Of a DNA stretch of 64,000 bases, positions 19,993 to 63,435 are shown one piece after another. The notes under the pieces are model-generated. The model saw nothing but the letters and a program-made list of their open reading frames with translations, was not told the DNA's origin and ran no database searches. Both the position numbers and the translations under genes were made by a program. Every line of letters starts with the position of its first letter. Position 1 is the first letter of the stretch. The stretch is from Gammaproteobacteria bacterium Ga0074134 (GTDB lineage: Bacteria > Pseudomonadota > Gammaproteobacteria > Ga0077554 > Ga007554): assembly GCA_001464965.1 (NCBI GenBank), contig LNEJ01000030.1, positions 1 through 64,000 of the forward strand, written 5' to 3'.

Positions 19993-21423
19993 TTATCCTT
20001 TGATACAAATTAGCGGGACAAGCTTCGCTACTTTGCGGGCAAGCTTTCCCTGATCTGCGGCATCTACTACTGCACTTACATCCTTGTATGCGCCGGGAGC
20101 TTCTTCCGCTATGCCGCGAAGAGATGGGCTGCGGATTAAAATGCCTTGGTGTGCCAGCTCATCGACGAGGGTGTGTCCCCACCACTGGCGGGTGGCTTGG
20201 TGGCGGCTCATGCTGCGGCCCGCGCCGTGGCAGGCGGAGCCGAAGGAACGAGCCATGCCTTCACTCGTGCCGACAAGGATATAGGAAGAGGTTCCCATGG
20301 TGCCGCCGATGAGCACCGGCTGTCCTATGGCGCGGAATGCTTGAGGAATATCAGGGTGGCCTGGCCCAAAGGCGCGGGTGGCGCCTTTGCGGTGGATGTA
20401 GAGCCGCTTCGGCGCGCCATTGATAATGTGTTCCTCAACCTTGCAAGTGTTATGTGAAACATCATATAGCAGCTTTAATTCGGCCTGAGGGAAGAGCGCG
20501 GCGAATACCTGTCGAACCAGGTGAGTAATAATCTGGCGGTTTGCCAAGGCGCAGTTGATGGCGGCGCGCATTGCGCCCAGATAATCTTGTCCAAGGGATG
20601 AATGGATGGGTGCGCAGGCCAATTCACGATCGGGAAGGTCAATGCCGTATTCGGCAGCGGCGATGGCCATGGTTCTTAAGAACTCGGTGCCTATTTGATG
20701 GCCGAGTCCTCGCGATCCGCAGTGAATGCTGACTACAATATTATCCATGTGAACGCCAAAAGCGTTGGCGGTGTTTTCATCAAAGATTTCCGCTACACGC
20801 TGTATCTCTAGGTAATGATTACCGGAACCCAATGTGCCCATTTCGTCGCGCTGGCGTTTTTTGGCATGATCGGAGACCTGTGCAGGTTGTGCGCCCGCCA
20901 TGCAGCCGTGTTCCTCGGTATGCTCCAGGTCTTCGGTTGTGCCATAGCCGCGCTCAACGGCCCAGCGGGCGCCTCCGCTTAGCATAGCGTCCATTTCTGT
21001 TGAGTTGAGGCTCAAATATCCGGTGCTGCCCACCCCAGCGGGGATTTTGTCATACAGGGCATCGGCCAGCTTTTTTTGTACCGGGATGATATCCGCCACG
21101 GTGAGGCCGGTAAGCAGATTGCGCACGCCGCAGGAGATGTCGAACCCGACGCCGCCAGCGGAGATTACTCCGCCACGGTCTGCGTCGAAGGCGGCGACCC
21201 CGCCAATTGGGAAGCCATAACCCCAATGGGCATCAGGCATGGCGTAGGCCGCCTTTTCAATGCCGGGAAGTGTGGCTACATTGGTGATCTGTTCGTAGAC
21301 TTTGTGATCCATTTCGCGCAGGAGTGCTTCGCTTGCATAGATGATGGCGGGTACGCGCATCTTTCCGGTGGGATCGATGCGCCATTCGTATTCGGATTGC
21401 CGGATAAATAGTGATGTGTCCAT
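19993..21423 (-). CDS. rtcB: RNA-splicing ligase RtcB
   Basis: RtcB joins RNA 2',3'-cyclic-phosphate or 3'-phosphate ends to 5'-OH ends using GTP and Mn2+, in tRNA or RNA repair. The sequence shows MPDAHWGYGFPIGGVAAFD, GGVGFDISCGVRNL, GSGNHYLEIQ, VSIHCGSRGLGHQIG and VSHNTCKVEEH, which carry the metal-binding Cys/His residues, and RKGATRAFGPG with the catalytic-loop residues. I use the ATG at 21423 (MDTSLFIRQ), with GGAAGGAC upstream, over an in-frame ATG 8 codons earlier. It follows the archease gene on the same strand, separated by a short repeat. Confidence 0.95.
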   Translation of the reverse strand: MDTSLFIRQSEYEWRIDPTGKMRVPAIIYASEALLREMDHKVYEQITNVATLPGIEKAAYAMPDAHWGYGFPIGGVAAFDADRGGVISAGGVGFDISCGVRNLLTGLTVADIIPVQKKLADALYDKIPAGVGSTGYLSLNSTEMDAMLSGGARWAVERGYGTTEDLEHTEEHGCMAGAQPAQVSDHAKKRQRDEMGTLGSGNHYLEIQRVAEIFDENTANAFGVHMDNIVVSIHCGSRGLGHQIGTEFLRTMAIAAAEYGIDLPDRELACAPIHSSLGQDYLGAMRAAINCALANRQIITHLVRQVFAALFPQAELKLLYDVSHNTCKVEEHIINGAPKRLYIHRKGATRAFGPGHPDIPQAFRAIGQPVLIGGTMGTSSYILVGTSEGMARSFGSACHGAGRSMSRHQATRQWWGHTLVDELAHQGILIRSPSLRGIAEEAPGAYKDVSAVVDAADQGKLARKVAKLVPLICIKG

Positions 21424-60594: not shown

Positions 60595-61902
60595 TCAGAC
60601 AGAGGGTTCGGTGGCCGCTTCATTTTCGGCAGTGGGGTCGGTGAGCCGCTGAATCGTCAGCGCGCAGCGTTGTTCAATCAAGGCAATGATTCGTTCAACC
60701 ACTGCGTTTCCGGTAAAGCCGAGTCCAGGGGCAGATCGGAGTTCGCGCGCCTTGGGTGGCAGTGACTTTGCCAACTCCAGAACGCGTCTTTTAGTCTGTG
60801 CCTTGGCAAGGCCTACGCTCTCTGCAAACTGATCCCAGTGTCGCGCCTGGACTTCGCTGAACTTGTATTTGCTGCCGATTTTCATCGCCATCTTCAGCGT
60901 CAGTGTTGGATATATCGCAGTCGATAGCGTGTCGTATAACGGCGCCAGAACAGGCGTCTTGCCTGACTTTCCACCCATATACAGCAGCGAGAAATTCTTG
61001 GCATGCGCATCATGATTGCCGATCAGCGCATTGAAGATCACGTAATCGAGCAGACGCAGGATCTGCGGCGCACTGGGGCGCGTGGCACGGCGTACCAGGT
61101 CGAAGCATTGCGCCAGATCTGGCCCACCTTCATTTTGGTATTTCATTTCTGGTACCACGCCTAGCGCCTGGCAGAAATCCTCTTGATGAAGGCGTTGCCG
61201 ATGCTCCTGAGCATCAACAACTCGGTCGTAGCGCTCAACCAGCATGAACGAGCGATTCAATACGGAGTGAATTTTTGACTTCGCCGGCTTGAGCTGCATG
61301 GCCTCAGCCAACGCCATACAGAAGCCTTCGTTGATCACATTGTCTTCAACAGCGTGAATGGCGGGCTTCAAGATGTGGGAACTGGGCGTGCCGTTGAGGG
61401 GCAGACCAATGCGGGCACCATCGAAAACCACCGGTAGTTTGTCTTGGGCGCCAGCCAAAGAAAGCCGCAAGCCGTCTTTGCCGGCCAGCATGGGGCGATG
61501 CGGCAATTCATCCAGGATGGCAGCGACCTCCTCGTCGCTCAGCCATTGAACGTCATCGTTGCGGGTAGGCATAGGCAACGCCTGTCCGGGCTCCAGGAAC
61601 GTCACGGCCCCGGCGCATTCGCCACCGATGTGGTCAAGCAGCGCAAAGTCGTTCTGGTCGGAAACCTGGAATTGTTGTGCAATCAGGCGGCGCATCTGCC
61701 CCTCTGGCAACAGACCGGCAAAGAAGGGGCGAGTCTTGCGATCATCGAACGGCTCCGCTTGCTGGGGTAGCGAGGTGGATAAGGCAACGGCGTCTGGCCG
61801 CAATAGCCAGTCGGGCGCATAGCAAAAACTCAGTCGGCCATCGACCAGCGCCAAGGTGCCGACGCGGTCGGTGAACAACCAGACTTCCAGTTCATGCGCC
61901 AT
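60595..61902 (-). CDS. hipA: HipA-type serine/threonine kinase toxin
   Basis: HipA toxins are kinases that phosphorylate targets such as glutamyl-tRNA synthetase and induce persistence. The 435 residues show the HipA N-terminal domain, the SLAGAQDKLPVVF segment (S148), the catalytic motif NALIGNHDAHAKNFSLLY with D298, and PLYDTLST with D324. I start at ATG 61902 (MAHELEVWLFTD), which overlaps hipB by 11 nt. The start upstream of it would lie inside hipB. All catalytic residues are present. Confidence 0.92.
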   Translation of the reverse strand: MAHELEVWLFTDRVGTLALVDGRLSFCYAPDWLLRPDAVALSTSLPQQAEPFDDRKTRPFFAGLLPEGQMRRLIAQQFQVSDQNDFALLDHIGGECAGAVTFLEPGQALPMPTRNDDVQWLSDEEVAAILDELPHRPMLAGKDGLRLSLAGAQDKLPVVFDGARIGLPLNGTPSSHILKPAIHAVEDNVINEGFCMALAEAMQLKPAKSKIHSVLNRSFMLVERYDRVVDAQEHRQRLHQEDFCQALGVVPEMKYQNEGGPDLAQCFDLVRRATRPSAPQILRLLDYVIFNALIGNHDAHAKNFSLLYMGGKSGKTPVLAPLYDTLSTAIYPTLTLKMAMKIGSKYKFSEVQARHWDQFAESVGLAKAQTKRRVLELAKSLPPKARELRSAPGLGFTGNAVVERIIALIEQRCALTIQRLTDPTAENEAATEPSV

Positions 61903-62152
61903 GGTCGTTGCCCTTGTGTTGGTCTTCGGTAGCAACGGATGGCAATCCGCTCAACTGGATCTCTCCACCCAGGGCGTCAATGACCCGCAGCACGTTTTCA
62001 AGTCGCAAGGTGGGCTTGCCTGCTTCAAGGTCGACGATGAAGCGCACACCAACTCCTGCTGCCAGCGCCAACTGAGGCTGTGTCAGTCCGAGTTGCTTAC
62101 GAGCAGCGCGAAGGGTATCGCCGAGTTGTTGAGGTGATCGAATGGATGTCAT
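61892..62152 (-). CDS. hipB: HipB-type antitoxin, XRE family
   Basis: HipB neutralises HipA and represses the operon. The 86 residues contain a Cro/C1-type helix-turn-helix (LGDTLRAARKQLGLTQPQLALAAGVGVRFIVDLEAGKP) and the C-terminal ENVLRVIDALGGEIQLSGL strand typical of HipB. The three palindromic operators upstream support autoregulation. hipA overlaps its end. Confidence 0.93.
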   Translation of the reverse strand: MTSIRSPQQLGDTLRAARKQLGLTQPQLALAAGVGVRFIVDLEAGKPTLRLENVLRVIDALGGEIQLSGLPSVATEDQHKGNDHGA

Positions 62153-62163
62153 GGCTTGCTCAG

Positions 62164-62279
62164 TTTCCCGTTCGGGAAATTATCAGCCAGAATCTGCCTA
62201 TGTGCAAGTTGTATTTACCGATCGGGAATGTTGCGCTCTGTTAGGGCATAGTTCAGTCATATATTTCCCGATCGGGAAA
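62164..62279. promoter_or_regulatory. Three phased operators upstream of hipBA
   Basis: TTTCCCGTTCGGGAAA (62164-62179), TTTACCGATCGGGAAT (62214-62229) and TTTCCCGATCGGGAAA (62264-62279) are copies of one 16-bp palindrome, the last perfect. Their centres are exactly 50 bp apart. The nearest is 11 bp upstream of the hipB start. They fit the role of HipB/HipBA operators, as known for hipBA, where several operators are bound cooperatively. Confidence 0.85.
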
Positions 62280-62314: not shown

Positions 62315-62500
62315 TTTACACCCAATATGGCGCGGATCAGGAAGAGTTGCGCCAGCTTTTGGCGCAGTTTGCTAGGGCACTACGAAACGGCGTCACAGAG
62401 TGCAGATGATCTGGAGCTCTTCAATCTTTTAGCGGTCGGGAATTCCGCTCGTTTACGGAGAAAGGTGGCCGCAATCTCCGCAAAAAATGCGGCGAATTGA
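62315..62500 (+). pseudogene. Degenerate small gene, possible element remnant
   Basis: Reading from about 62315 gives QYGADQEELRQLLAQFARAL, RNGVTE and then a premature stop. Shifting frame by one base near 62395 continues as SADDLELFNLLAVGNSARL and RRKVAAISAKNAAN to the stop at 62498-62500. The composite looks like a real small soluble protein that has suffered a single-base frameshift. I do not recognise the family. Confidence 0.35.
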
Positions 62501-62922: not shown

Positions 62923-63435
62923 ATGGGCATTAAAGGTACAGGAAGACGCGGGCCACCCGGAAAATCGCCGCATTTGAAACTTATATCCGGCACAGACAGG
63001 GTAGACAGGGTATCGCCCGAAGTTATCAAGCTGGCAGACGGCGAAGACCCTGAGCGTCCGAGCTTCTTGAGCGCGGATGCTATCATCGAATGGGATAAGG
63101 CTATTGCGATCCTCAAACGCTTGGGTATTTTGTCAATGGCAGATTCGGCGATCATTGCGGCGTATTGCGTGGCAAAATGTACTTTTCAAAATTCATCCAT
63201 CATGATCAATAGCAGCGGCGAGTTTGGCGGCCTGCTTATCCAGGGGACTGCTGGCGCAAAAATCGCTAACCCGCTGGTGAGCATCCGTAGCCGCGCCATG
63301 AATGACATGGTGAGTTATGCGATACAGATGGGCATGACACCGGCCGCGAGATTGAGGCTTAACGCGGAAGTATCGTCAAAGAAGAAAGAAAATCCCTTTA
63401 CCGCATTGAAGGATGAAGCTGACATAATCCAGTAG
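62923..63435 (+). CDS. Phage terminase small subunit, P27 family
   Basis: P27-family small terminases recognise phage DNA for packaging. The 170 residues begin MGIKGTGRRGPPGKSPHLKL, and contain RPSFLSADAIIEWDKAIAIL, the P27 pattern of a Trp in a helix after a short leader, and a C-terminal SIRSRAMNDMVSYAIQMGMTPAARLRL. No large terminase is adjacent within the window; small islands often keep the small subunit alone. SD-like TTGGGAG lies about 10 nt upstream. Confidence 0.82.
   Translation: MGIKGTGRRGPPGKSPHLKLISGTDRVDRVSPEVIKLADGEDPERPSFLSADAIIEWDKAIAILKRLGILSMADSAIIAAYCVAKCTFQNSSIMINSSGEFGGLLIQGTAGAKIANPLVSIRSRAMNDMVSYAIQMGMTPAARLRLNAEVSSKKKENPFTALKDEADIIQ

Follow-up and report, generated by a model that had tools for sequence, protein, structure and literature searches.

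Excerpts of PMC3376134 describe four TATCC-N8-GGATA sites in the hipBA operon of Escherichia coli. Evenly spaced arrays of HipB operators are already published as well, for example for Legionella HipBST, for which portions of PMC10653801 report, with EMSA, three evenly spaced HipB sites separated by 53-bp gaps, the proximal one lying over the promoter. The Caulobacter crescentus operons hipBA1 and hipBA2 have three sites each, with a spacing described in excerpts of PMC8545095 and PMC7029023 as consistent with E. coli complexes. As for the shape of the proteins on such sites, passages of an eLife article about HipBST of E. coli (PMC10627512) call the HipBA complex of E. coli K-12 compact and head-to-tail, whereas in Shewanella oneidensis HipBA and in HipBST the two toxin halves are kept apart by the HipB dimer. 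In the literature searched we found no publication that surveys the spacing of HipB operators in different families or divides HipBA into pitch classes; Schumacher 2015 and Wen 2014 may carry remarks on the subject.

The window (the whole stretch of 64,000 nucleotides analysed here) carries three near-palindromes of 16 bp, O1–O3, which precede an intact minus-strand hipB-hipA operon (Table 1). As in E. coli K-12, palindromic sites attributable to HipB lie in the promoter of an overlapping hipB-hipA operon and the proteins are homologous. The two systems differ, however, in the number of sites (three versus four), in half-site and recognition helix and in pitch, since E. coli K-12, the positive control of our survey, gives 28/39/28 bp and the window 50/50 bp; the window sites are thus of the TTTCCC-N4-GGGAAA type at 50 bp and not of the E. 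coli type, TATCC-N8-GGATA at about 28 bp, which goes with a complex that the excerpted account describes as compact. With Legionella HipBST, as far as the published excerpts describe it, the locus shares three evenly spaced sites with the proximal one at the promoter, and among solved structures the window HipB is closest in sequence to that of L. pneumophila (2e-9). According to the same excerpts the Legionella operators have another sequence, stand about 71 bp apart from centre to centre if a site is 18 nt long, and serve a toxin split into HipS and HipT, whereas the window has a single 435-aa HipA frame with both domains. One surveyed locus (L105) does have three sites with both gaps at 71 bp and a HipB recognition helix resembling that of Legionella; this distance equals the 53-bp gap given in those excerpts plus an 18-nt site and served as a further positive control.

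The hipBA locus of the window

The hipB gene lies upstream of hipA and overlaps it by 11 nt. The alignment of the window HipA with E. coli HipA spans residues 5-401 (1e-38). The kinase motifs of HipA proteins, the SxAGAQ loop, DxHAKN and YD, appear in it as rlslagaqdk, nhdahaknfs and plydt. An Xre-type HTH gene thus directly precedes and overlaps the gene of a HipA kinase that has both N-domain and C-domain, the arrangement of a HipBA type II toxin-antitoxin system. Homology and the match between operators and recognition helix suggest that HipB binds the operators and represses the operon, and that HipA is toxic and neutralised by HipB. The operon is situated between ffh and a gene for a P27-family phage small terminase (window 62923-63435), whose start lies some 640 bp beyond O3 on the upstream side.

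Table 1. Genes, candidate operators and predicted promoter elements of the hipBA locus, in window coordinates
Feature	Position	Strand	Sequence	Remarks
hipB, 86 aa, Xre-type HTH antitoxin/repressor	61892..62152	-		NCBIfam TIGR03070 above cut-off; HTH_3
hipA, 435 aa, HipA-family Ser/Thr kinase toxin	60595..61902	-		Couple_hipA and HipA_C above cut-off
Operator O1, most hipB-proximal	62164..62179	-	TTTCCCGTTCGGGAAA (+ strand)	centre 62171.5; kept in 85 distinct relatives
Operator O2, just upstream of -35	62214..62229	-	TTTACCGATCGGGAAT	centre 62221.5
Operator O3, outermost	62264..62279	-	TTTCCCGATCGGGAAA	centre 62271.5
-10 element	62179..62184	-	GATAAT	one base common with O1; conserved column block in 83 aligned spacers; consensus match
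-35 element	62202..62207	-	TTGCAC	17 bp from -10; consensus match
O2-O1 interval, 34 bp	62180..62213	-		core promoter inside; mean pairwise identity 0.66 (83 spacers); CTTGC and TGATAA blocks kept
O3-O2 interval, 34 bp	62230..62263	-		length 33-34, once 32, in relatives; sequence turned over

The three palindromes and their centres had been predicted from the letters of this DNA, and both are confirmed, with the two gaps at exactly 50 bp. Counted from the hipB start codon the centres lie 19-20, 69-70 and 119-120 bp upstream, the outermost copy being well upstream of the gene, as had also been noted. The centre of O1 is non-palindromic and O2 is imperfect, one of its arms reading TTTACC. When up to three mismatches are allowed, the pattern has four matches in the whole window, namely O1–O3 and one at 20622, where 100 shuffles of the window gave 0.34 on average and never more than 2. 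A fourth weak resemblance at 62428-62444 falls outside the 50-bp lattice.

Operator spacing in relatives and across HipBA

To define close relatives we required a HipB at least 78% identical and at least 140 bases of upstream sequence, and 88 such rows, drawn from 80 genome-contig loci, one plasmid and further genomes, were reduced to 85 distinct upstream stretches. The distance from O1 to O2 is 50 bp in every one of the 83 relatives with a scorable O2 (the remaining two have none), and that from O2 to O3, searched between 40 and 60 bp, is 50, 49 and 48 bp in 49, 21 and 1 of 71 scorable cases. Sequence between O3 and O2 is poorly kept: mean pairwise identity is 0.52 for the 34-bp spacers (49 in number) and 0.38 for the 33-bp ones (21). 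O3 appears to be dispensable, because it is not recognisable in 14 of the 85 relatives. Across the same 85 loci O1 and the ATG are anything from 11 to 24 bp apart (19 in 73 of them), and length is therefore not kept everywhere.

The window-type hipB is present in three of eight genomes of the order to which the window genome belongs, and relatives 81-94% identical to it are found in many records named Beta- or Gammaproteobacteria and also on Acidovorax plasmids. This distribution suggests frequent transfer of the gene. Two loci (L072, 2501-2749; L045, 2501-2761) have a window-family hipB and two sites 50 bp apart with no hipA found behind it; at L072 hipB is followed by a VapBC-like pair, identified by eye.

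It could be argued that O1–O3 are owned by another regulator, or by the neighbouring phage-like genes, and the nearby start of the terminase gene lends this some colour. Yet the sites accompany hipB from one genome to another, a plasmid included, and their sequences differ jointly with the HipB recognition helix from family to family (see below). Nor does the genome hold a wider set of such sites: a search of it for TTCCCG-NN-CGGGAA with up to one mismatch returned nine places, three of them O1–O3, against 12 for the reversed-pattern control, which also means no excess of sites for a HipB regulon elsewhere in this genome. We find ownership by another regulator hardly credible.

For a wider view, 130 hipA loci were taken from the matches listed for the HipA N-domain (PF13657) in 398 genomes from the phylum. 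They comprise all rows with a new locus and 100 of the further listed places, the matches in total being more than 130, and the window is among them as L165. (TIGR03070 had been tried as the family search and was too unspecific below its cut-off, with matches in 381 of 398 genomes.) A HipB-like frame stands directly upstream in 125 of the 130 and the other five were dropped. These 125, 24 additional HipB loci and E. coli K-12 were passed to a pair finder that looks for similar palindromes 16-120 bp apart and assumes neither sequence nor spacing; the window occurs twice among the 150 loci, as L165 and as xWIN.

In 83 of the 150 the best pair was reached by none of 60 shuffles, and the other 67 gave no signal. 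Considering the hipA loci only, 71 of 125 were significant, and in 55 of these the best distance was 26-28, 49-51, 53-56 or 98-102 bp. Control stretches from hipA coding sequence and from further upstream were significant in 2/125 and 2/117 cases, none of them in the expected bins. When one locus is taken per 70%-identity HipB cluster (61 with signal), gaps of 26-28 bp are counted 34 times, 49-51 bp 25 times and 31 bp four times, while the rest are scattered. Of the 117 loci in which a pair was significant, 45 have a gap of 48-51 bp and 49 one of 25-28 bp. The dominant pitches of hipBA operators in the loci sampled across the phylum are thus 26-28 and 49-51 bp, and the 50-bp spacing is not special to the window locus but common to many related operons.

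Helical phase does not unify these distances. At 10.5 bp per turn 50 bp makes 4.76 turns, hence not a whole number, and the idea that all pitches share one phase was rejected: 28, 38.5 and 49 bp all correspond to 240 degrees and 50 and 71 bp to 274, while 27 bp (206) and 31 bp (343) do not fit.

While pitch is kept, operator sequence is not. The loci with 50-bp pitch use at least six half-site types, TTTCCCG, ATCACC, TCCTCA, ACGAAAC and TTTATC among them; seven were counted, one of which comes from L285, whose 48-bp pair is no credible array. Recognition helices and half-sites go together as GVRFIVDLE with CCCG, SHVFVRDVE with GAAAC, SENFLGKVE with CCTCA and GVGINTLSRIE with TCACC. Each half-site type has a recognition helix of its own, so that the recognised sequence varies at a constant pitch, and this pairing provides the best indirect evidence of HipB binding to the sites. 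Concerning the altered recognition code proposed for the window, it holds that both core and recognition helix differ from those of E. coli, although the shift is modest when half-sites are compared (TTTCCC versus TTATCCC).

These replacements also bear on the idea that the spacing is inherited and functionless, left by a 50-bp unit that was duplicated in tandem in an ancestor and still visible as little time has passed. Strong clustering of pitch on the protein tree, described below, is what it would predict. However, spacers and even operator sequences have been replaced, the leader outside the array varies in length, and a comparison by eye shows no resemblance between the two spacers of the window array. 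We hold this explanation to be highly improbable.

Position of the operators on the promoter

The predicted -10 and -35 elements lie between O1 and O2, and a transcription start is expected near the centre of O1. All 45 significant loci with a 48-51-bp gap, pooled from both locus sets with the window counted once, were scored for the best sigma-70 match. In 29 of them the end of its -10 is 2-12 bp upstream of the O1 centre (shuffles: mean 2.2, maximum 5); four others have their best match displaced upstream by one pitch, at -55 to -58. From this register it follows that the operators bracket the core promoter.

Such bracketing might be the whole story, a distance of 50 bp simply placing one site on the start and one before -35, with HipB dimers binding independently and free of contact. 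The strict O1-O2 register of the core promoter accords with this, as does the fact that O1-O2 is the most invariant gap. It does not explain, however, the tight gap between O2 and O3, which holds no conserved promoter and still measures 48-50 bp in 71 of 71 relatives in spite of its low spacer identity. It also sits badly with 31 three-site lattice loci in which both gaps are 47-51 bp (selected from 46-53 bp). We therefore regard bracketing alone as rather unlikely, though deserving of some weight.

We think it probable that O1–O3 form an autoregulatory array of HipB operators whose pitch is set by the geometry of the bound complex. The reading draws on the positions of the sites, their conservation, the promoter register and the pitch across families, from which binding and repression are deduced. 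HipB, alone or as a HipB-HipA complex, would repress its own operon through the three sites. O1 would lie on the expected transcription start with its edge sharing a base with the -10, O2 near -50, just before the -35, and O3 near -100. HipB at O1 and O2 would bracket the 34-bp core promoter, and O3 would reinforce repression. The pitch would be held at 49-51 bp because adjacent complexes can meet in one geometry only, and other HipBA lineages, E. coli K-12 included, would perform the same task at a pitch of 26-28 bp. That the palindromes are hipBA operators, as originally proposed, thus finds support in their conservation with the gene, the promoter register and the joint differences of operator and helix across families. 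The original interpretation is supported in this part; cooperative HipB-HipA binding with looping or wrapping of the DNA, which it also proposed for the exact periodicity, would be a further step and is a conjecture.

Pitch, phylogeny and the shape of the complex

A tree of HipB joined to the HipA N-domain (141 rows, 177 columns, quick method) separates the two main pitches. A clade of 52 rows (support 96), with E. coli K-12 inside, holds 38 loci of the 27-bp class, none of the 50-bp class, two others and 12 without signal. Another of 47 rows (SH-aLRT support 82) holds 25 of the 50-bp class, one other, 20 without signal and one doubtful 27-bp call (L209, gaps 55/36/14). Only three changes between the classes are needed on the tree, and pitch follows the HipA/HipB phylogeny. 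We define the 50-bp-pitch group by membership of the 47-row clade and a pitch of 49-51 bp in the promoter register; the window falls within it. Five loci (L203, L204, L229, L215 and L268) make up a third, separate HipBA group with 31-bp gaps, three of them in the arrangement 31/44-47/31.

The rule was then applied to 87 new hold-out loci from another class, taken among the matches listed (27 given by the search and 60 further listed places), and was fixed after these loci had been fetched and before their spacing was computed. Fourteen had no HipB-like frame upstream of hipA and were dropped. Of the 73 left, 35 gave a signal and 38 none, and 32 could be assigned to the 27-bp or the 50-bp clade. 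The predicted bins received 23 of the 32 (9/12 and 14/20), one of these matches (L329) having a doubtful motif. Three showed the opposite pitch (L305, L309 and L332, all with low classification margins). Six fitted neither bin: L300 (27/25), L314 (47/48) and L338 (50/48/50) were off by a mere one or two bp; L285, L307 and L352 belong to neither class. At L352 six similar palindromes stand upstream of hipB with gaps of 14/14/46/14/14. The prediction rule is strong, not perfect. Spacing in homologous hipBA loci had been named in the original prediction as a point to check, random spacing being the alternative, and it proves non-random in close relatives, in the de novo survey, on the tree and in the hold-out set.

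It should be noted that the division into 27 and 50 bp is largely a single phylogenetic split, so the cause could be anything else that distinguishes the clades. The difference in pitch most likely arises from the shape of the HipB2HipA2 complex, which the excerpted structural accounts describe as compact for E. coli and as extended for Shewanella HipBA and for HipBST. Profiles were built from 22 HipA N-domains of each pitch group. S. oneidensis HipA (4pu3) scores 73.6 bits with the 50-bp profile and 27.4 with the 27-bp one, and HipS proteins 56-59 versus 32-44 bits, while E. coli HipA gives 78 and 141 bits. The c31 profile gave 27.8 bits for S. oneidensis HipA, and this protein was not among the matches of a profile of 21 of the remaining deep branches. 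The likeness of S. oneidensis HipBA to the 50-bp group is one of N-domain score; from such scores extended complexes seem to go with long pitch, a correlation that involves very few solved structures. At positions 86 and 88 of E. coli HipA, which we take to be tied to HipA dimerisation, the clades differ (P/A and D/S versus D/A/V and A/G); as a cause of pitch these interface residues are a weak candidate and were set aside, since the clades differ at many columns.

A bolder proposal, which we put forward tentatively, is that operator pitch is near-fixed within a lineage and reads out the shape of the assembly: compact E. coli-like complexes would be marked by a pitch of about 27 bp, extended Shewanella-like ones by about 50 bp and some HipBST-like ones by about 71 bp. 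The toxin of the 50-bp lineage would then bridge HipB dimers across the core promoter, sequestration of the toxin and closure of the promoter being one assembly. The model of how DNA-bound HipA is kept inactive derives from E. coli, whose sites have a pitch of 28 bp, and about one half of the hipBA loci that could be classified in this sample have 50-bp sites, too distant for an unchanged E. coli geometry. Pitch would thereby offer a simple sequence-level predictor of assembly type.

At L194 nine called HipB-type sites and two weaker ones follow each other at a 27-bp pitch and form an array of about 270 bp before one hipBA operon, extending from 13 to 283 bp before the approximate start of the HipB HTH.
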